DNA of 64,000 nucleotides, taken from contig PHFX01000152.1 in assembly GCA_007618135.1 (NCBI GenBank), forward strand, positions 62,001 through 126,000, written 5' to 3'. This DNA comes from Candidatus Brocadia sp. WS118. Lineage in GTDB: Bacteria > Planctomycetota > Brocadiia > Brocadiales > Brocadiaceae. Position 1 is the stretch's first letter. Each line of letters begins with the position of its first letter. This document shows, one piece after another, positions 51,420-64,000 of this stretch. The notes below the pieces were generated by a model that saw only the letters and a list, made by a program, of their open reading frames with translations, made no database searches and was not told where the DNA came from. Position numbers and translations under genes: made by a program.

Positions 51420-51776
51420 TTAGAGTCTTTTTGCTATCTCGCCTAAAAGTTTTTCTTTATTAAAAGGCTTCTCGAGGAATGAGACATTTCCCAGCGCCTG
51501 AAAACACCGGTACGTTTTTTCATCTAGTGCAGAGGCCATAATAATAGGAACCTCCCTATATCGGCTATCCTTTCTCAGCATTGCAAAAATCCTGTCACCC
51601 GTAACTCCTTCCATCAAGATATCCAGGATCACTAAATCATATTTCTTTTCTTTTGTTTTTTTAAGTCCTTCGTCTGCGTTTGAGGCAAGGGTGATGGTAA
51701 ATTGTCCCCCTTGTAGCATGTCCTTATAAAACTCCTGCATTTCCAGATCGTCTTCTATAATTAATATCTCCTTCAT
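51420..51776 (-). CDS. Single-domain response regulator
   Basis: 118 residues comprising only a receiver domain: acidic pair in IIEDDLEMQ, phosphorylated Asp in LVILDILMEG, Ser in MASALDEKTY at the switch position, and Lys in LEKPFNKEKL. There is no output domain, so it works by protein contact. AAAGGAG precedes the ATG. It is 48 bases downstream of the histidine kinase gene on the same strand and is likely its partner. Confidence 0.93.
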   Translation of the reverse strand: MKEILIIEDDLEMQEFYKDMLQGGQFTITLASNADEGLKKTKEKKYDLVILDILMEGVTGDRIFAMLRKDSRYREVPIIMASALDEKTYRCFQALGNVSFLEKPFNKEKLLGEIAKRL

Positions 51777-54175: not shown

Positions 54176-54808
54176 ATGGACGTTAAAGAAGCTATTCAGA
54201 AACGCCGAAGTATTAGAAGATACACATCAGACCCCGTATCGGATGACCTGATATTACAGCTTTTGGAAAGCGCAAGGCTTGCCCCGTCAGGCTCCAACAC
54301 GCAGCCCTGGAAATTTGTTGTGGTGAAAGACGCCGAAACAAGAAAAAAATTGCAGTCGGCTTCGTATCATCAACGGCATGTTGGACAAGCGCCTGTCATC
54401 ATTGCATGTTGCGCAGATATGAAGGCATTTGGAGAATTCCCGGAACGAATTGATGAACTGATCGATGCCGGCGCACTCCCTGCAAAAACCCGCGAAGTCT
54501 TCGTCCCGTCATTAAAAAAAGGCGGGATAAGCGCCGACACGAAATGGCATTTGCTCATTGCCGCTACAGGAAATACGGATATTGCCATTGAACACATCGT
54601 TCTTCACGCTGTGGAACTGGGCTTGGGAACATGCTGGGTCAGATGGTTCGATGACATGAAGGTCAAAGAAATACTCGACATCCCGAACAATATTGAAATT
54701 ATCGCCTTGCTCCCGCTAGGCTATCCAGCAGAAAAGCCACCGCAAAGACCGAGATTTGCCCTTGAAAAAATTGTTTATTATGAAAAATATGGAAATCAAA
54801 AAATTTAA
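54176..54808 (+). CDS. Nitroreductase family FMN oxidoreductase
   Basis: About 210 residues. It shows the FMN phosphate site KRRSIRRYTSDPV, the flavin-binding APSGSNTQPWKFVVVKD, then LGLGTCWVRWFDDMK and the C-terminal LLPLGYPAEKPPQRPR. These enzymes reduce nitro compounds, quinones or flavins with NAD(P)H; some make or break flavin-related cofactors. The ATG at 54176 is preferred over a GTG at 54161. The last 29 bases overlap the pyruvate carboxylase gene, so the two are translated together. Confidence 0.9.
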   Translation: MDVKEAIQKRRSIRRYTSDPVSDDLILQLLESARLAPSGSNTQPWKFVVVKDAETRKKLQSASYHQRHVGQAPVIIACCADMKAFGEFPERIDELIDAGALPAKTREVFVPSLKKGGISADTKWHLLIAATGNTDIAIEHIVLHAVELGLGTCWVRWFDDMKVKEILDIPNNIEIIALLPLGYPAEKPPQRPRFALEKIVYYEKYGNQKI

Positions 54809-57800
54809 AAAACTCCTTGTTGCCAACCGCAGTGAAATAGCAATCCGGGTCTGCCGGGCAGCATATGAAATCGGCATACGAACGGTGGCAATCTACTCTC
54901 ATGAAGACCGCTTTGCACTCCATCGATTTAAGGCGGACGAGGCATACCAGATTGGGAAGGGAAAAGACCCGGTAAAGGCGTATTTGGATATCGACGGCAT
55001 CATTCAACTGGCAACAGAGAAGGAAGTGGATGCCATTCACCCTGGTTACGGGTTTCTCTCAGAGAACGCCAACTTTGCCCGCGCCTGTGAAAAGGCTGGC
55101 ATTGCCTTCGTCGGCCCCCGTCCGGAAATTCTCGATATGCTCGGCAATAAAACCTCGGCCAAAACAATTGCAGAGAAGGCTCAGGTACCCATACTTTCCG
55201 GATGTAATCACCCCGTCAAAAGTCTTGATGAGGCCAAAGTTCTTTGCAATACCCTGGGTTATCCGGTTATTATCAAGGCTGCCCATGGCGGCGGCGGACG
55301 CGGTATGCGCGTGGTTCGCAATGAACTGGATTTAAGCCGTCGTCTTCTTGAAGCACAACGTGAATCCCTGACGGCCTTTGGTTCTGATGAGTGTTTCATA
55401 GAAAAATATGTCGAAAAGGCGCGTCATATTGAGGTGCAGATCCTAGGCGACAAATACGGCAACATTGTGCACCTGTTTGAACGTGATTGCTCACTCCAGA
55501 GACGTCACCAGAAAATTGTTGAGATTGCACCGGCACAGAATCTCGACGAAAACGTCAGGCGAAGTATCTACGAGGCAGCTGTTAACATATGTAAATCAGT
55601 TCATTATGATAACGCAGGAACCGTTGAATTTCTTCTCGATACAGAAACGAATCAGTTTTATTTTATCGAGATTAACCCCAGGATTCAGGTTGAGCACACG
55701 GTCACCGAAATCATTACCGGCTTCGATCTGGTGAAGAGACAGATTCTTATCAGTGCGGGATTTCCTCTTAATTCACCGGAAATTCTTATACCGAACCAGG
55801 AAGCGATTCTGATACATGGCATCGCCTTTCAGTGCCGGATTACCACCGAAGACCCTTCCAACAAATTTATTCCCGACTACGGCCGTGTCCAGCATTACCG
55901 TTCTGCCGGAGGGATGGGTATCCGGCTTGACGCCGGGACTGCCTTCTCAGGAGCCCTCGTAACACCCTACTATGATTCCATGCTGGTGAAAGTCACTGCC
56001 TATGGCTCCTGCTTTGAAGAAACCATACATCGTATGGACAGGGCATTGCACGAATTCAGGATTCGCGGCGTGAAAACCAATATCCCATTTCTCATTAATC
56101 TGATTAACCATAAAGATTTCCATAGTGGGAAATGCACGACACGTTTTATTGATGAAAATCACGATATCTTCCGCTTTCAAAGCCGCAGAGACCGCGCCTT
56201 TCGCATAATGCGTTTTATCGGAGACATTCTCGTGAACGGACACCCTCTTGTTAAGGAGGCACCTAAGACGGCTTGTCGCCGTGAAGCGCCGGTTCCCGCT
56301 GTTGACCGCAAACAAGCCAGACCCAAAGGCAGCCGTAACCTCCTTCTCGAAATGGGACCTGCCAAATTTGCACAGCATATTCTTAAAGAGAAGAAACTCT
56401 TGATTACGGACACCACCTTCCGCGATGCACATCAGTCCCTCCTGGCTACCCGCATGAGAACGGTAGATATGCTGAAAATAATAGACGTGTACTCAAGAAA
56501 TCACGCGGATTTTTTCTCACTGGAAATGTGGGGTGGCGCAACGTTTGATACCGCCATGAGATTCCTCTGGGAATGTCCCTGGGAACGGCTGCACCACATG
56601 CGCAAGCTGGCCCCCAATATCCTTTTTCAGATGCTGCTCAGGGCATCGAATGGCGTTGGCTACACCAACTACCCTGATAACGTCGTCAGGGCATTTATCA
56701 GACAGTCTGCAGAAAGCGGCATTGACATTTTCCGTGTCTTCGATTCACTTAACTGGGTTGAAAATATGAAAGTAGCAATGGATGCCGTTCTGGAAACCCA
56801 TGCCTTATGCGAAGCTGCCATCTGTTACACCGGCGATATTCTCCATCCAAAACGGAATAAGTACACGCTGGACTATTATGTAAAAATGGCGAAGGAGCTG
56901 GAAGGACTTGGCGCCCACATCCTGGCAATCAAGGATATGGCAGGACTCCTGAAGCCTTACGCCGCCTATGAACTGGTGAGTTCTCTGAAATCTGAACTGA
57001 AGATCCCCATACACCTTCATACCCATGATACGTCGGGCGGCCAGATCGCTACGCTTATCAAGGCAGCAGAGGCTGGTGTGGATATTGTTGACGCTGCCAT
57101 AGGACCATTTTCCGGACTGACCTCGCAGCCCAATATGAATACCCTTGTGGAAATGATGCGTTTTCACGAACGAGACACGGGTATGGACTTCAAGGCGCTC
57201 GGATCGCTCTCAGCATACTGGGAAGTGGTCAGAGAGTATTATGAGATGTTTGAATCTATCCAGAAAGCAAGCACGGCAGAGGTTTATCACCACGAAATCC
57301 CCGGCGGGCAATTTACCAACCTCTTCCAGCAGGCACAATCTATGGGTTTGGCACACCGCTGGCACGAAATCACCAACGTCTATGCAGACGTCAATCAGCT
57401 TTTTGGGGATATTGTGAAAGTCACTCCATCTTCAAAAGTCGTCGGAGATATGACCCTCTTTCTCGTAACGAATAACATCAATGCCCGCGATATTATCGTC
57501 AATTCCAGGGATATCTCCTTCCCCACCTCAGTAGTAGAATTCTTTGAAGGCCGTCTCGGTCAGCCTACCGGAGGTTTCCCGCGAGAAGTGCAGGAGAAAA
57601 TTCTGCGCGGCGCTCCGGCTTCTACGGAAAGACCCGGCGCTAACCTGCCACCCGTGAATCTTGATGAAATCAAAGAAAAGGTTGAAACACGTGTCTCACG
57701 AACAATTACTAAAGAAGAGCTTATGTCCTATTTGATGTATCCTGACGTCTTTGTTCACTATGCCGAGCACCGGAAGAAATATGACGATGTTTCCGTTATT

Positions 57801-58238
57801 CCCACGGATGTCTTCTTTTATGGCCTGCCCATAAACGAAGAAGTCTCCATTGAAATCGAGGAAGGAAAGACGCTGATTTTCAAACTTGTAGCCATGAGCC
57901 CGGTAAATGCGGAGGGAAACTGCACCGTATTTTTTGAATTTAATGGCCAGCCGCGTGAAGTAGTTATTGCCAATCGCAAGGTAGCTGCCTCAGTGATCAA
58001 ACGCCCTCAGGCAGATGATGAAAATGCCAAACATGTCGGGGCTCCCATGCCGGGCATGGTCGTCAATGTAAAAGTAGCGGCCGGAAATAAAGTCAGTAAA
58101 AATGATCCGCTTCTTATTATGGAAGCCATGAAGATGGAAGCGACTGTTTATGCAGAACACGATGGTGTAATCGGCCAGGTCCTGGTTAAGGCAAAAGAGA
58201 GTGTTGAGGCAAGAGATCTCCTGATCGTCTACCAATAA
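54780..58238 (+). CDS. pyc: Pyruvate carboxylase
   Basis: A single-chain biotin enzyme of about 1152 residues that makes oxaloacetate from pyruvate and bicarbonate. The biotin carboxylase domain comes first (KKLLVANRSEIAIRVCRA, AAHGGGGRGMRVV, FIEKYVEKARHIEVQ, FIEINPRIQVEHTVTE). The carboxyltransferase follows (LLITDTTFRDAHQSLLATRM, EMWGGATFD, KDMAGLL, HTHDTSGGQ), then the allosteric/linker region and the biotin domain with MEAMKMEA near the C-terminus. Two ATGs (54780 and 54789) are possible starts; both lie inside the nitroreductase gene. It feeds the TCA cycle and gluconeogenesis from acetyl-CoA-derived pyruvate. Confidence 0.97.
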   Translation: MKNMEIKKFKKLLVANRSEIAIRVCRAAYEIGIRTVAIYSHEDRFALHRFKADEAYQIGKGKDPVKAYLDIDGIIQLATEKEVDAIHPGYGFLSENANFARACEKAGIAFVGPRPEILDMLGNKTSAKTIAEKAQVPILSGCNHPVKSLDEAKVLCNTLGYPVIIKAAHGGGGRGMRVVRNELDLSRRLLEAQRESLTAFGSDECFIEKYVEKARHIEVQILGDKYGNIVHLFERDCSLQRRHQKIVEIAPAQNLDENVRRSIYEAAVNICKSVHYDNAGTVEFLLDTETNQFYFIEINPRIQVEHTVTEIITGFDLVKRQILISAGFPLNSPEILIPNQEAILIHGIAFQCRITTEDPSNKFIPDYGRVQHYRSAGGMGIRLDAGTAFSGALVTPYYDSMLVKVTAYGSCFEETIHRMDRALHEFRIRGVKTNIPFLINLINHKDFHSGKCTTRFIDENHDIFRFQSRRDRAFRIMRFIGDILVNGHPLVKEAPKTACRREAPVPAVDRKQARPKGSRNLLLEMGPAKFAQHILKEKKLLITDTTFRDAHQSLLATRMRTVDMLKIIDVYSRNHADFFSLEMWGGATFDTAMRFLWECPWERLHHMRKLAPNILFQMLLRASNGVGYTNYPDNVVRAFIRQSAESGIDIFRVFDSLNWVENMKVAMDAVLETHALCEAAICYTGDILHPKRNKYTLDYYVKMAKELEGLGAHILAIKDMAGLLKPYAAYELVSSLKSELKIPIHLHTHDTSGGQIATLIKAAEAGVDIVDAAIGPFSGLTSQPNMNTLVEMMRFHERDTGMDFKALGSLSAYWEVVREYYEMFESIQKASTAEVYHHEIPGGQFTNLFQQAQSMGLAHRWHEITNVYADVNQLFGDIVKVTPSSKVVGDMTLFLVTNNINARDIIVNSRDISFPTSVVEFFEGRLGQPTGGFPREVQEKILRGAPASTERPGANLPPVNLDEIKEKVETRVSRTITKEELMSYLMYPDVFVHYAEHRKKYDDVSVIPTDVFFYGLPINEEVSIEIEEGKTLIFKLVAMSPVNAEGNCTVFFEFNGQPREVVIANRKVAASVIKRPQADDENAKHVGAPMPGMVVNVKVAAGNKVSKNDPLLIMEAMKMEATVYAEHDGVIGQVLVKAKESVEARDLLIVYQ

Positions 58239-58296: not shown

Positions 58297-60369
58297 TCAT
58301 CTCATATTTACCTGAGCGGTGTTTGACAAAACCGGCACGCATTTTTTTATGGGTAACGCAATAATGAAGGTACTTCCCTTTCCAAACATACTTTTTGCCC
58401 ATATCTTGCCACCGTGCAATTCAACCAGGCGCTTTGCAAGAGCCAGACCAAGTCCGGTTCCTTCGTACTGCCGTGAAAATGAACTATCAATCTGGCAAAA
58501 AGCCTTAAATAATTTATCCATGTCTTCCTGCCGGATTCCAATACCCGTGTCACTCACGGCAATTTGAACATGTTGATTCATAAGCTTTGCATTAATGGAA
58601 ACCCTGCCATGATCTGGCGTAAATTTGAAGGCATTCGAAAACAAGTTGTACAGAATCTGCTTGAATTTTACTTTATCAGCGGTTATCGGCGGTATGTCCT
58701 CATGAATATACGTACGCACGCTGATACCTTTCTTATGGAAAGATCCTTCGACGGTATTTAATACCTCATGAATGGTCTCTTCTACCGGGAAGACCTCAAA
58801 CTGAAGCTCTAATTTTCCAGCCTCGATCTTTGAAAGGTCAAGAATGCCATTGATCATGTTCAGGAGGTGCTGCCCACTACTATGAATATCACCCACAAAG
58901 TCTTTTTGCTCCGTATTGAGGGAGCCGCTCACTTCGTCGCGTAAAACCTCGGCAAAGCCAATAATGGCATTTAACGGGGTACGCAGTTCGTGTGACATGG
59001 TTGCTAAAAACTCTGACTTGAGTTTATTGGCCTTTTCAAGTGCCACATTTGCCTTCTGAAGTTCCTCGGTGCGTTCTGCAACCCTTTTCTCCAAGATAAC
59101 ATTCATGTCTTGAAGCCTGGTAATACGCATGAAATCAAGCCATGAAGCTACGTCTTCATATTCGGCAATATTCAGCCCCCGCCGTTCTTCTTCCGGACTT
59201 ACCCGGATGCCTATAGTCTTCTTTATGCACCAGAAAAAGAGCATGCCCAGACCGAATGACCATGCAAAGGCCACGCCGACACCTATCGCCTGAACGCCAA
59301 GCTGATGCATGCGGTTACCATTTTCCACCAGAAGTTTGGTTGTATCACCAAAAGGGGCAACACAAAGCGTCCCGATAGCGCCACCTACCCCATGAACCGC
59401 AACTGCAGAAACGGGATCGTCTATCCTCAGCACCTTTTCAATGAAATCCTGGGCGAGGATTGACAGGATACCAGCAATAAGACCAATGTAAACAGCGCCA
59501 TCGGGACTTACCAGATCTGACCCTGCAGTAACTGCCACTAAACCGGCCAATATTGCCGTAAAGAGCTTGCTGGCATTGAGTTTCTTCTCTCTTACATAAT
59601 TAAATATCAGCGCCGATACCCCCGCTGCAGCCGGAGATAGATTGGTGTTGGTAATAACAAGCCCAATATCTGCGCTTGCCTTGAGCAAACTGCCACCATT
59701 AAATCCAAACCAACCAAACCAAAGGAAAAAGGTACCTATGGTAACTAACGGAATATTGTGGAGACCCATCTGGTTAGAAGAACCGTCCGGATTGTATTTG
59801 CCAAGCCTTGGCCCCACGACAATAGCCCCTGACAGGGCAAACCATCCGCCAACAGAATGCACGATCGTAGAACCTGCAAAATCAATAAACCCCAATTTTT
59901 CCAGCCAGCCTGACTGTTCCGGGCAAAAAAGATGCCCCCACGCCCAATGGCCAAAAACCGGATAAATAATGCCGGTTACAAATACGACTGCGATAACATT
60001 GGAAACAAAATTTGACCGTTCGGCAATAGCTCCTGTCAAAATGGTAGCAGCAGTAGCAGCAAAGACCAATTGAAAAAAGAAAAAACTATACGCTAAATTG
60101 CCCTGATGTAACATTACTCCCAGAGCAAAGAAATGGTCTGTGCCGATCCAGCCGGAATAGCTGTTGCCAAACATCAATCCAAATCCGGAAATATAAAACG
60201 TAAGGGAAGCGACCAGGGTGACCATGAGGTTTTTGATACAAACACTGATGACATTTTTGGATTGTGCAAATCCCGCTTCATAGGAAGTAAAGCCAAGTTG
60301 CATGAAAAACACCATGCAAGCCGCAGCCATAACCCAGATGTGATTCATGTTTATTTGTATGTTTTCCAT
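58297..60369 (-). CDS. Ammonium transporter-histidine kinase fusion (Amt sensor kinase)
   Basis: A 690-residue fusion. Residues 1-385 are an Amt/Mep/Rh ammonium channel with eleven helices, including FIDFAGSTIVHSVGG (Asp163, His171) and SAVAVHGVGGAIG (His326), the twin His of the pore. A coiled coil (420-450) leads into HisKA with the phosphorylated His460 in ATMSHELRTPLNAI, then the ATPase domain (LFSNAFKFTPDHG, VSDTGIGIRQ, GTGLGLALAKRLV). An Amt sensor kinase of this build was characterised from Kuenenia stuttgartiensis (Ks-Amt5), where the Amt part senses ammonium. No receiver domain is present. It lies 31 bases after a PilZ membrane protein gene. Confidence 0.95.
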   Translation of the reverse strand: MENIQINMNHIWVMAAACMVFFMQLGFTSYEAGFAQSKNVISVCIKNLMVTLVASLTFYISGFGLMFGNSYSGWIGTDHFFALGVMLHQGNLAYSFFFFQLVFAATAATILTGAIAERSNFVSNVIAVVFVTGIIYPVFGHWAWGHLFCPEQSGWLEKLGFIDFAGSTIVHSVGGWFALSGAIVVGPRLGKYNPDGSSNQMGLHNIPLVTIGTFFLWFGWFGFNGGSLLKASADIGLVITNTNLSPAAAGVSALIFNYVREKKLNASKLFTAILAGLVAVTAGSDLVSPDGAVYIGLIAGILSILAQDFIEKVLRIDDPVSAVAVHGVGGAIGTLCVAPFGDTTKLLVENGNRMHQLGVQAIGVGVAFAWSFGLGMLFFWCIKKTIGIRVSPEEERRGLNIAEYEDVASWLDFMRITRLQDMNVILEKRVAERTEELQKANVALEKANKLKSEFLATMSHELRTPLNAIIGFAEVLRDEVSGSLNTEQKDFVGDIHSSGQHLLNMINGILDLSKIEAGKLELQFEVFPVEETIHEVLNTVEGSFHKKGISVRTYIHEDIPPITADKVKFKQILYNLFSNAFKFTPDHGRVSINAKLMNQHVQIAVSDTGIGIRQEDMDKLFKAFCQIDSSFSRQYEGTGLGLALAKRLVELHGGKIWAKSMFGKGSTFIIALPIKKCVPVLSNTAQVNMR

Positions 60370-60400
60370 ATCGAATATACTATCCGTAATGTTGTTATGA

Positions 60401-61819
60401 TCATGATGGGGACGATATTATAATCCTGTCAATTTGGTTCGATTCATTCTGTCCCTCTTCTTCCGAAGCTATTTGTAATCCGATAACAGGTTGCGTTTCG
60501 TTCGTTATCCGCCTGATTACGAACTGTTTCTTTTTCAGGAAATGATCTACGATGAAATCCGCTACACGTGGTTCAATTGGAGATTCGCCTTGCAACGTGA
60601 CGACCTGTCCATTGTTCCGCAGAAGATCAGTAGCCTCTAATTTCAAGGAAACGCCTTCGCGGGAATAATCACACAGGGAGGCTTTTATTGTCGTTTTTCG
60701 ATCCTGCAAACAGACCTCTAACAACGGTTGCTTCCACTCCCATACCTGGCGGGGAAATTTGCGTCGATCGTTACTATATGGCGTACGGCATTTAGACGCA
60801 TGTAGCGCATCGAAAACATATTTCAACCTTGAAGCATGTGAATCGATAGTCTCTTTAATAATCCGATTGCGGTCTGCTATTCGAGATTCCATATGAAACA
60901 AGTCTACACAAGACGTCAGCCATAACTTCAGAAAATGATCTTCGAGTATCTCAAAAGGTTTTCCGCTTTGCTGCATCTGATATTTAAACACCGGCATATG
61001 AGCTCCGACGCAGAGATTCGATGAACGCTGGCTTGCGCTTCGTCCAAAGGTATATGGCTGAAAATGAGCCATATTATCAATAATCATAAGCCAGCCTGTT
61101 GGATTTTGCGCATAGAATCTGACTGCAGATTCAATATAAGGATAGTTCTGAAGCCTGTCAAAAGTATGGGCAAAATCGCTGTAGAGTCGCAAATGAAAGA
61201 TAGGATCATCAGTTGACAGTGTTTTTGTCCTGTCCGTATTGATTATCTTTTCAACCTCATGGGCGGTGCTCTCATAAAACGTGCGGAAAACTGCTGTCTC
61301 TTGAAACACGTCAAGGAGAAGAATCTTGATGTCGAGCCCCTTAGCTATCTTTTCGTTCAGGGTGGAAAGCAATTCATCGAGATGGACATTTTCCGAGAAG
61401 GTAACACCGAGAAGCCAAACCCGTTTTTCTGCATTTTCAACAGCATCGTAGACATCACTTTTTACATCTTTACGGGAGCAATAGATATTCGTTAACCCGC
61501 AGAGGGCTGCCGACCCGATAAGCCGGTTGGTATGTTGCAGGGATTTTTCTAAGGAATTTCTGTTGTCATCAATCAGTTGGTGAGTGGCTTGAAGGGTCTC
61601 TTTTAAAATACTTCGTATATGCGCAAATATTTCCCACCATAGATATGCATATTCCATAATATGCACACACATTATAGCACTGAAGACAAGAAGCAGATGC
61701 TTCACGATCTCCGGAATATTGTGCCAGTAACGGGGTAACAGAATGTTCATAGTAACTGCGATAAAAAAGAATAAACATGCTATTACCATCCTAATAAACG
61801 GTCTCGGTCTTTCATTCAT
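60401..61819 (-). CDS. Membrane protein with C-terminal PilZ (c-di-GMP receptor) domain
   Basis: 472 residues. Helices at about 10-29 and 40-62 anchor it. Residues 95-290 form a soluble domain (AEKRVWLLGVTFSENVHLDE, WLMIIDNMAHFQPYTFGR) that resembles a phospholipase-D-like fold without the HKD catalytic motif; this resemblance is tentative. A C-terminal PilZ domain begins near 350 with RRKFPRQ (R-x3-R) and LCDYSREGVSLKL (D-x-S-x-x-G), the two c-di-GMP-contacting motifs, both intact. GGAGGTGAT before the ATG is a near-perfect anti-Shine-Dalgarno match, so translation should be strong. The Amt-kinase gene follows 31 bases downstream. Confidence 0.82.
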   Translation of the reverse strand: MNERPRPFIRMVIACLFFFIAVTMNILLPRYWHNIPEIVKHLLLVFSAIMCVHIMEYAYLWWEIFAHIRSILKETLQATHQLIDDNRNSLEKSLQHTNRLIGSAALCGLTNIYCSRKDVKSDVYDAVENAEKRVWLLGVTFSENVHLDELLSTLNEKIAKGLDIKILLLDVFQETAVFRTFYESTAHEVEKIINTDRTKTLSTDDPIFHLRLYSDFAHTFDRLQNYPYIESAVRFYAQNPTGWLMIIDNMAHFQPYTFGRSASQRSSNLCVGAHMPVFKYQMQQSGKPFEILEDHFLKLWLTSCVDLFHMESRIADRNRIIKETIDSHASRLKYVFDALHASKCRTPYSNDRRKFPRQVWEWKQPLLEVCLQDRKTTIKASLCDYSREGVSLKLEATDLLRNNGQVVTLQGESPIEPRVADFIVDHFLKKKQFVIRRITNETQPVIGLQIASEEEGQNESNQIDRIIISSPS

Positions 61820-62128
61820 AAATCATCACCTCCGTGTGAATGAACATTGCTCCGGCTTGTCAAGTAAGTTCACGCAGAGCACTTGCATGTTACATTCAGA
61901 CCGCGGAATTACTCGCTTGTCTATGGTTATTATAGGCAAGGAAAATTAATTTAAGATGTATTCATTCAAATACTCCTCTTAAAAGGCAAAGTAAATACCA
62001 ATCTCATAAAATAAGATTATATCCGTCATCGTCCTTGCTGTAAGATCTGATTCCCGCTGGACTTTCAATTATAAATAAAGACAGAATATACTACATAAAA
62101 GTCACTAGTTTTATTTAATACCATCGAT

Positions 62129-62180
62129 AAAAGTGTGCCATGTCACATAAGTGTGTCGTCACAAAAGTGTGCCATGACGC
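62129..62180. repeat. Three tandem ~17-bp repeats (iterated operator or IS end)
   Basis: Three adjacent units: AAAAGTGTGCCATGTCAC (62129-62146), ATAAGTGTGTCGTCAC (62147-62162) and AAAAGTGTGCCATGACGC (62163-62180). They share (A)AAGTGTG(C/T)C(A)TG/C and alternate 18, 16 and 18 bases. They lie about 310 bases upstream of the PilZ-Amt kinase operon. They could bind a regulator cooperatively, or be the multiple terminal repeats of an IS21-like element whose body is gone. Confidence 0.7.
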
Positions 62181-62281
62181 ACATTAATACTCTCTATAAC
62201 AATCATACCACAAATTTTTCATTTTTCAACAAACCCTGAACGAAAAGTTACTGTGAAAGGGTGGTGGTGTGGATAAAAGGT

Positions 62282-62390: not shown

Positions 62391-63044
62391 TTATTCATGT
62401 TTCCCTTTGCATATTACATTATCTTTTGGGTTGTGTGATAGAAAAAGTTTTGTGGGTCCTGGGGCTGGCTTCAGGCTGAGATTATCATACCATCCGGCAA
62501 CACTTCCATGCATCCAATCCTGCCGTGTCTCTGTAAAGACAGTAATTACCTCTTTCGATGGAATGATTATCAGAGAAAATTCCACCCATGGTGAAATAGC
62601 ATTACCGCCGATATAATATTTGTTCAACGCAGTATAGGCAAGTGCCGGATTCCAGGAACTATCAAGGATTCCGATAATTGCTACATCCCCTATGTCATCA
62701 CCATAAAATGACACGTAACCAGTTAACACATAAGGGGTATTTACAATTACCTTAACTTCCTGATAAAGCCCCCCTCGCGCAGTTCCACCAGAACCAACTT
62801 GTTGTGTCAGGGCAAAGAAACCGCTGGTACTGGGTGGCACAGGAATTCCAATATTGCCAGGAAGAGCAATCGTCAGATGTACCGGCAATTCTGCCGGCGC
62901 TCCATCACCATCCCATGGATAGGTTTCCCAATACCTCCAACCCGTAATGTCCCCTGTTTCAAAATCACCGTTTTTCAGTATTTCAGCGGCAAATAATGAA
63001 CGTATGAACACGATAAGTATGAATACCAGGACACTATATTTCAT
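62391..63044 (-). CDS. Secreted protein with carbohydrate-binding-like fold
   Basis: 217 residues with a signal peptide (YSVLVFILIVFIRSLFAAE). The mature part opens ILKNGDFETGDITGWRYWET, the standard beginning of CBM4/9-type or galactose-binding-like jelly-roll domains, and continues with GGLYQEVKVIVNTPYVLTGY and VFTETRQDWMHGSVAGWYDN, also typical. It probably binds sugar or protein at the cell surface or in matrix. There is no ribosome binding site near the ATG. The gene is bracketed by copies B and C of the dispersed repeat. Confidence 0.75.
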   Translation of the reverse strand: MKYSVLVFILIVFIRSLFAAEILKNGDFETGDITGWRYWETYPWDGDGAPAELPVHLTIALPGNIGIPVPPSTSGFFALTQQVGSGGTARGGLYQEVKVIVNTPYVLTGYVSFYGDDIGDVAIIGILDSSWNPALAYTALNKYYIGGNAISPWVEFSLIIIPSKEVITVFTETRQDWMHGSVAGWYDNLSLKPAPGPTKLFLSHNPKDNVICKGKHE

Positions 63045-63167: not shown

Positions 63168-64000
63168 CTATTTCCGCTTTGGTTTCAATCTCTTATATGT
63201 TGCGTACTCTTTATCGGCTTCATTTTTCAGACCCTTTTTATCATAGACAATACTTAGATTAAAATGGGCAATGGCGCAATTTGGGTCTACTTCAATAGCC
63301 TTTTTATATTCCTCGATTGCCTCGTCATACATCCCTTTGCGCAAATAAAGATCGCCTATTTCGTTATACACCTCAGGGGTTTTTGAACTCAAGGTGTCGA
63401 GAGAAGATTCTGGCGCCACAGACACAGGTTTTGCTTCCGCCACATGAGACTGCTGCGACTCAGATGACACAAACTGCCGGTGCTGAATTACCGGCACGGA
63501 TAGAGTTACCGTCTTGATTTCTTTTGCGCGCAACAAACTCAGCTTTGCTTCTTTGCCGGCGGTTTTTTCAATGAGTTGTTTCAAATGGTTCCGGTTCTCA
63601 ATTTTTTCCCCATTTAATTCCACAATGAGGTCTTCTGTCATAATATTCGCGGCAAATGCAATGCTTCCCGGTTGAACATGAACAACAATGACACCCTGTT
63701 GTTTTATCTTATATCCGAACCAATTCTTGTTCTCCTGGGTAAGATTGCATAACAAAAGCCCCAGATGATTGTGGGATTCCAGGAACGTAATTGCCATACC
63801 TTTGCACCACGAAGTATATCTTACGCCATAATCAGTCCCTCCCAATTCACCATACCCATCCCACGTTTTTGAAGCCCCCGTGTCGTATTGAACATTAATC
63901 ACTGCCTGCGCGCCCACCGCACGACCTTTTTCTTCTATTTTAGATGCCAAAATATCATGCCCGGAAAAACCGTACTCACCCAGACTGACTTCGCCTAATT
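63168..64000 (-). CDS. PDZ-TPR protein with YbjQ-like N-terminal region (5' end outside window)
   Basis: At least 276 residues; the frame continues past base 64000, so the start is missing. The visible N-terminal part reads GEVSLGEYGFSGHDILASKI, then EEKGRAVGAQAVINVQYDTG, resembling heavy-metal-binding/YbjQ-type pentamer domains. A PDZ domain follows (QGVIVVHVQPGSIAFAANIM, DLIVELNGEKIENRNHLKQLIEK), then a Ser-rich linker and two to three TPRs (EVYNEIGDLYLRKGMYDEAI). It is probably an envelope scaffold. The internal codon at 63950 is not the start. Confidence concerns the domain layout; the function is unknown. Confidence 0.8.
   Translation of the reverse strand, partial: LGEVSLGEYGFSGHDILASKIEEKGRAVGAQAVINVQYDTGASKTWDGYGELGGTDYGVRYTSWCKGMAITFLESHNHLGLLLCNLTQENKNWFGYKIKQQGVIVVHVQPGSIAFAANIMTEDLIVELNGEKIENRNHLKQLIEKTAGKEAKLSLLRAKEIKTVTLSVPVIQHRQFVSSESQQSHVAEAKPVSVAPESSLDTLSSKTPEVYNEIGDLYLRKGMYDEAIEEYKKAIEVDPNCAIAHFNLSIVYDKKGLKNEADKEYATYKRLKPKRK

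Follow-up and report, generated by a model that had tools for sequence, protein, structure and literature searches.

A Brocadiales-specific membrane protein with a PilZ-like domain as a candidate accessory of an Amt sensor kinase

Introduction

Fusions of Amt proteins to diguanylate cyclases link ammonium to cyclic di-GMP (c-di-GMP) within one protein. Here we describe a locus of Candidatus Brocadia sp. WS118 at which the Amt domain is, in contrast, fused to a histidine kinase, and at which a possible link to c-di-GMP would run through a separate receptor protein encoded by the adjacent gene. The locus lies in a stretch of 64,000 nucleotides of contig PHFX01000152.1 (hereafter the window; all unlabelled coordinates are those of the window), and the host assembly comprises 5.04 Mb. 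The adjacent gene (60401-61819, minus strand) encodes a membrane-anchored PilZ-like protein of 472 amino acids, for which we use the label PilZm. Anammox bacteria use ammonium as their energy substrate, and gene order assigns PilZm to the ammonium sensor as a candidate accessory. We favour, with moderate confidence, the reading that PilZm is an optional accessory that modulates the Amt kinase and, in some lineages, adds c-di-GMP as a further input.

The sole characterised Amt sensor kinase is Ks-Amt5 of Kuenenia stuttgartiensis (kuste3690, KSMBR1_3866, PDB 6eu6). Ammonium changes its phosphorylation in vitro, and ammonium-dependent autophosphorylation without transport has been shown for this protein alone. 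Its two-ammonium intramembrane site comprises Q24, E31, N47, D50, T51, T109 and T112, with D50 as one of two acidic ligands, and its response regulator is not known (PMC5764959). Both Amt-histidine kinase genes of K. stuttgartiensis show low expression, below 100 reads per kilobase per million mapped reads (PMC7438415). In a literature search we found no paper linking PilZ to anammox Amt kinases.

Results and discussion

The Amt kinase and the gene upstream of it

The original prediction, made from the letters of the window, described an Amt-histidine kinase fusion as in Kuenenia. Indeed, the 690-amino-acid product contained the Pfam domains Ammonium_transp (4e-114), HisKA (2e-23) and HATPase_c (1e-28), and its best PDB match was Ks-Amt5 (6eu6, E 5e-191). 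Like Ks-Amt5, it combines these three domains without HAMP or PAS and has the same selectivity filter, Phe gate, His pair and pore-blocking residues; the whole Kuenenia orthologue is 68% identical. The entries 8qj3 and 8qpf are longer Amt proteins that match the window kinase over the Amt part only. The features of the pair are as follows.

58297..60369, minus strand: Amt-histidine kinase of the Ks-Amt5 type, 690 amino acids (Pfam domains, PDB match)
59146..60336, minus strand: Amt domain (residues 12-408) with the Ks-Amt5 selectivity filter, Phe gate, His pair and pore-blocking F27/Y30/F34 (Pfam, alignment; residue roles from PMC5764959)
60220..60222, minus strand: codon of V50, in the place of D50 of Ks-Amt5 (alignment)
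58816..59019, minus strand: HisKA domain (residues 451-518), phospho-acceptor H460 in SHELRTPLN (Pfam, alignment)
58345..58677, minus strand: HATPase_c domain (residues 565-675; Pfam)
60370..60400, minus strand: inter-gene gap of 31 bp (open reading frame coordinates); in relatives, the genes overlap by up to 19 bp or stand up to about 90 bp apart
60401..61819, minus strand: PilZm, 472 amino acids, a Brocadiales-restricted family (open reading frame; ratio of nonsynonymous to synonymous substitution rates, dN/dS, well below 1 in all regions)
61825..61833, minus strand: ribosome-binding site of PilZm, GGAGGTGAT, with 9 nt spacing (sequence)

Six of the seven ammonium-site ligands of Ks-Amt5 are kept in the window kinase, and D50 is replaced by valine. 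This residue is V in Brocadia and Jettenia, E in the genera g2, g4, g10 and g11, and D in g9 and in two of the three g6 genomes, and its identity bears no simple relation to the presence of PilZm. To judge from the alignment, the replacement of D50 may change the affinity for ammonium or the number of ions bound.

The distance of 31 bases between the two same-strand genes agreed with the original prediction, as did the near-perfect ribosome-binding site of PilZm. A GGAGG-like site preceded PilZm in 21/21 homologues. The Amt kinase genes mostly have a weak or poor site, which fits the low expression of Amt-histidine kinases reported for K. stuttgartiensis (PMC7438415). A scan found no terminator-like site inside the gap.

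Conservation of the pair in Brocadiales

Outside the order Brocadiales, PilZm was not found in a profile search that covered 392 genomes of the phylum. Within the order, PilZm was present in 26 of 62 genomes, namely in 21 of Brocadiaceae, three of which (G025, G031 and G033) have fragments alone, and in five of a second family, presumably the Scalinduaceae. Its closest named relatives are those of Candidatus Brocadia pituitae (90% identity) and Ca. B. carolinensis (89%). Full-length orthologues of the Amt kinase were more widespread.

In all 16 intact Brocadiaceae copies that could be checked, the window included, PilZm comes immediately before the Amt kinase and in the same orientation. The pair is kept, with short gaps, in Brocadia, Jettenia and parts of three other genera of the family. 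In G022, both genes stand at contig ends; in G039, each is on a contig of its own. Placed in the coordinates of G040, the ends of these two contigs share 11 bp, which points to either an inserted element or a break in the assembly. In the B. carolinensis genome (G014, L099 8071-10114, minus strand), the frame of the Amt kinase itself is split in two by a frameshift or an assembly error.

Such a conserved order could be a leftover of gene order that is kept more widely, the two genes being adjacent without a functional link. Several observations weigh against our reading in this respect. Many relatives share further neighbours of the pair, upstream the genes at 62391-63044 and 63168-63998 and downstream those for a nitroreductase, a macrodomain protein, a GAF-PAS kinase and a receiver, so that much of the family shows partial synteny. 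Two Scalinduaceae genomes (G044 and G045) have no Amt kinase near PilZm. Moreover, a promoter-like match stands just ahead of the kinase gene (60432-60403, minus strand), and separate transcription of the kinase is therefore possible. Nevertheless, we consider a chance leftover rather unlikely, as order and strand are kept in all 16 contiguous copies and the pair survives in G035, where no other neighbour from the window was found. In Jettenia, too, the pair is retained, with an entirely different upstream side.

A further argument comes from Scalinduaceae, where PilZm is found near a second, different Amt kinase. In G047, G048 and G053, the genes for PilZm, a DUF2231 protein, a response regulator, an Amt-HisKA_2 kinase and another response regulator stand in a row, with an additional small rubrerythrin-like open reading frame in one of the three. 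What these loci have in common with the window is an Amt kinase gene with a gene for a PilZm homologue (54-56% identity) on the same strand. In contrast to the window, the kinase is of another class, about 35% identical to the window kinase, and the cluster includes response regulators and a gene for a hybrid-cluster protein. The clusters (L078 6365-14545, L079 3380-16007 and L080 3806-17183) also contain a gene for a Tll0287-like protein.

Because the pair survives in G035 and Jettenia and PilZm recurs near a different Amt kinase in three Scalinduaceae genomes, a functional linkage of PilZm to ammonium sensing is likely, as far as comparison of sequences can tell. The link is plausible and broader than the original prediction could know. 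The comparison of gene neighbourhoods across Brocadiales that had been proposed with it gave a divided answer: all 16 checkable Brocadiaceae copies are paired, but PilZm is absent or decayed beside other Amt kinases and stands apart from any in G044 and G045.

The kinase without PilZm

No Brocadiaceae genome was found that has PilZm without the Amt kinase. Conversely, 11 genomes of this family have the kinase without an intact PilZm: three with remnants and eight in which it is absent (G012, G013, G016, G030, G032, G036, G041 and G042). For G016, we examined the 960 bp upstream of the kinase, and the whole genome had no PilZm match. The kinases without intact PilZm fall at several separate places on a rough kinase tree, drawn without a formal test. 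This asymmetry, with PilZm never found without the kinase and the kinase often found without PilZm, is expected of an accessory.

One of the remnants belongs to K. stuttgartiensis itself (G031), whose Amt domain differs from 6eu6 at one of 403 positions. Upstream of Ks-Amt5, in place of the intact gene seen in the window, there is a stretch of about 50 codons that matches residues 409-458 of PilZm and has stop codons nearby (L085 9080-9229, 20-169 bp before the start codon of Ks-Amt5). PilZm has not been seen in Kuenenia because the gene there is a mere remnant. Since Ks-Amt5 responds to ammonium in vitro (PMC5764959), the kinase need not have PilZm to sense it.

These losses bear on the suggestion, made in the original prediction, that the PilZ protein may belong to the output side of the Amt kinase, so that ammonium would be coupled to c-di-GMP effects in one transcript. 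In its favour are the adjacency of the genes, the PilZ motifs, which are intact in the window, and the absence of a receiver domain from the pair. As predicted, the pair has no receiver or output domain: the nearest receiver gene found (51420-51776, minus strand) lies behind another histidine kinase. However, since PilZm is absent or a remnant beside the kinases of 11 genomes, among them that of K. stuttgartiensis with its ammonium-responsive Ks-Amt5, PilZ cannot be an obligatory output. In addition, a phosphoacceptor domain is missing from PilZm, and relatives have lost the PilZ domain or its motifs (see below). We therefore regard an output role as improbable.

The receiver gene at 51420-51776 was also considered as a partner of the kinase and rejected, since it directly follows the other histidine kinase and was not found beside the Kuenenia gene.

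Domains and fold of PilZm

In PilZm, two hydrophobic helices (residues ~4-32 and ~34-62 by hydropathy) are followed by a conserved domain and a PilZ-like C-terminus.

61622..61801, minus strand: two-helix membrane hairpin (residues 7-66), continued by a long helix that ends near residue 106 (hydropathy; predicted helices 7-34 and 37-106)
60785..61507, minus strand: soluble N-terminal domain (residues 105-345) of alpha/beta type, conserved (no invariant column beyond R317; weak PLDc_2; weak Foldseek matches to phospholipase D (PLD) folds, from a poor model)
60470..60769, minus strand: PilZ domain (residues 351-450; sub-threshold in Pfam; fold matches to PilZ structures)
60749..60763, minus strand: RxxxR motif, RKFPR (residues 353-357; alignment)
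60653..60670, minus strand: DxSxxG motif, DYSREG (residues 384-389; alignment)

The C-terminal domain escapes the usual assignment. PF07238 scored 15.8 bits on PilZm, under the gathering cut-off of 22.5, and the genome-wide Pfam search for PilZ did not detect the protein; at E up to 1, the family matched 4 of the 21 homologues (best 0.013). The predicted model had a mean confidence (pLDDT) of 46 overall and a moderate one, about 70, over the barrel. For residues 361-456 of this model, the top matches were PilZ structures, among them BcsA (Foldseek E 1e-4) and PP4397 (2gjg; VIA Z 9.1, root-mean-square deviation 2.3 over 79 residues). A six-strand beta-barrel is predicted, and both RxxxR and (D/N)xSxxG are present. 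Because of RKFPR, DYSREG and the fold matches, we consider the PilZ assignment right despite the low Pfam score; the protein is not filed as a member of PF07238 and is PilZ-like by its modelled fold and its motifs. The predicted barrel and the two motifs are what it shares with the PilZ receptors of c-di-GMP (BcsA PilZ, PP4397/VCA0042, YcgR). Its PilZ domain differs from them in the sub-threshold Pfam score, in following a membrane hairpin and a domain of no recognised family, and in being dispensable among the PilZm proteins.

For the N-terminal domain, PLDc_2 matched 3/21 members, weakly (best E 0.0019). An hhalign comparison with the PLD proteins of the same genome gave nothing better than controls. 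An AlphaFold2 model of this domain alone reached a pLDDT of 37, and a Foldseek search with it gave no match under E 0.1, the weak matches including PLD folds (3hsi, 9fhk and 8yr6) and FAM83 DUF1669. The HxK(x)4D catalytic motif is missing, with no HxK anywhere in PilZm, and the protein is therefore not an active PLD enzyme. NCBIfam had no family for PilZm, and searches of the PDB sequences with the single sequence and with a profile found nothing significant. By these searches, the N-terminal 320 residues form a membrane domain of no recognised family; in the phylum-wide profile search it was confined to Brocadiales.

Which part of PilZm is conserved

The alignment of the 21 homologues has no invariant residue beyond R317. 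Mean pairwise identity was 0.73 for residues 1-115 and 0.71 for residues 116-320, compared with 0.55 for the PilZ domain, and pairwise dN/dS was mostly 0.02-0.15 in the first two regions versus 0.10-0.44 in the third. The PilZ domain is therefore still constrained, only less. In these alignments, it is the least constrained folded part of PilZm and the most expendable one. Both arginines of RxxxR are gone in three Jettenia genomes (YKVPS, YNLPS and YKIPS), the glycine of DxSxxG is missing in G018, G019 and G021, and the genus g11 (G038-G040) has no PilZ domain at all, with an N-terminal part that is 70-72% identical to that of the window.

These losses, together with the sub-threshold Pfam score and the highest dN/dS among the folded regions, could mean that the PilZ domain binds c-di-GMP nowhere in the family, and that it is a structural or protein-binding barrel in a protein that modulates the kinase independently of c-di-GMP. 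Against this, intact RxxxR and (D/N)xSxxG motifs occur together in the window, in its nearest relatives, in G017, G020, G023, G029 and G035, and in all five Scalinduaceae. As the motifs are kept in Scalinduaceae, their intact form is probably ancestral, and this pattern suggests that the ancestral PilZm bound c-di-GMP. We thus give little credence to a family that never bound it. The host genome has 20 GGDEF domains, so that c-di-GMP signalling is likely present. The original prediction had the pair join ammonium supply to c-di-GMP signalling: of this, the linkage to ammonium sensing is likely, given the conserved pair, but c-di-GMP is not the conserved point, as the losses of PilZ motifs and domain show.

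Proposed role of PilZm

An input to the kinase, or a tuning of it, is preferred to an output because PilZm has no receiver domain and because an output repeatedly lost while its sensor stays would be unlikely. In the proposed mechanism, the simplest one, PilZm would be an optional accessory subunit of the kinase. The two would be made from linked, probably co-transcribed genes, and PilZm would be held in the membrane by its two-helix hairpin. Its conserved cytoplasmic N-terminal domain would most likely make contact with the kinase, or with its partners in signalling, and would tune the signal. The C-terminal PilZ domain would add a c-di-GMP input where the lineage keeps both motifs, this Brocadia included, and other lineages would dispense with it. 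The kinase would also work without PilZm, its signal going to a response regulator encoded elsewhere. The c-di-GMP part is the weakest of this account.

Tentatively, one may go further: PilZm would represent a new Brocadiales-specific family of membrane accessories that serves two classes of Amt sensor kinase, with c-di-GMP setting the gain of ammonium sensing, into the sensor and not out of it, and with this input repeatedly discarded in separate lineages. This extended version is doubtful at present. Brocadia, Jettenia and the PilZ-less genus g11 form a natural set for the question whether c-di-GMP feeds into ammonium sensing.

Surrounding DNA and a related PilZ protein

Upstream of PilZm, the window contains the following genes.

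62391-63044, minus strand: secreted-looking protein
63168-63998: PDZ-TPR protein

The secreted-looking protein has a sub-threshold match to CBM_4_9. In three genomes in which PilZm is absent, its gene stands directly ahead of the Amt kinase (19-57 bp). On the other side of the pair, the Amt kinase is separated from the nitroreductase gene by a pyruvate-carboxylase-type gene (54756-58238, plus strand) in the window, G014 and G015 only; the remaining relatives have no such gene at this place.

Two direct copies of AAAAGTGTGCCATG(T/A)C(A/G)CA, 34 bp apart, are also found upstream of PilZm (62129-62147 and 62163-62181). The core of this repeat occurs at eight places in the genome, once as an inverted pair, and the copies are perhaps ends of a mobile element.

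A PilZ domain ~40-45% identical to that of PilZm forms the C-terminus of a 601-amino-acid flavoprotein in G035 (L137 2720-4525, minus strand), with a receiver gene upstream. We considered this flavoprotein as a fusion partner of PilZm and rejected it, as the order of its domains does not fit a simple fusion. Members of the flavoprotein family that lack PilZ are widespread among Brocadiales; in G045, the gene for one of them comes directly after PilZm (L081 9652-11046).

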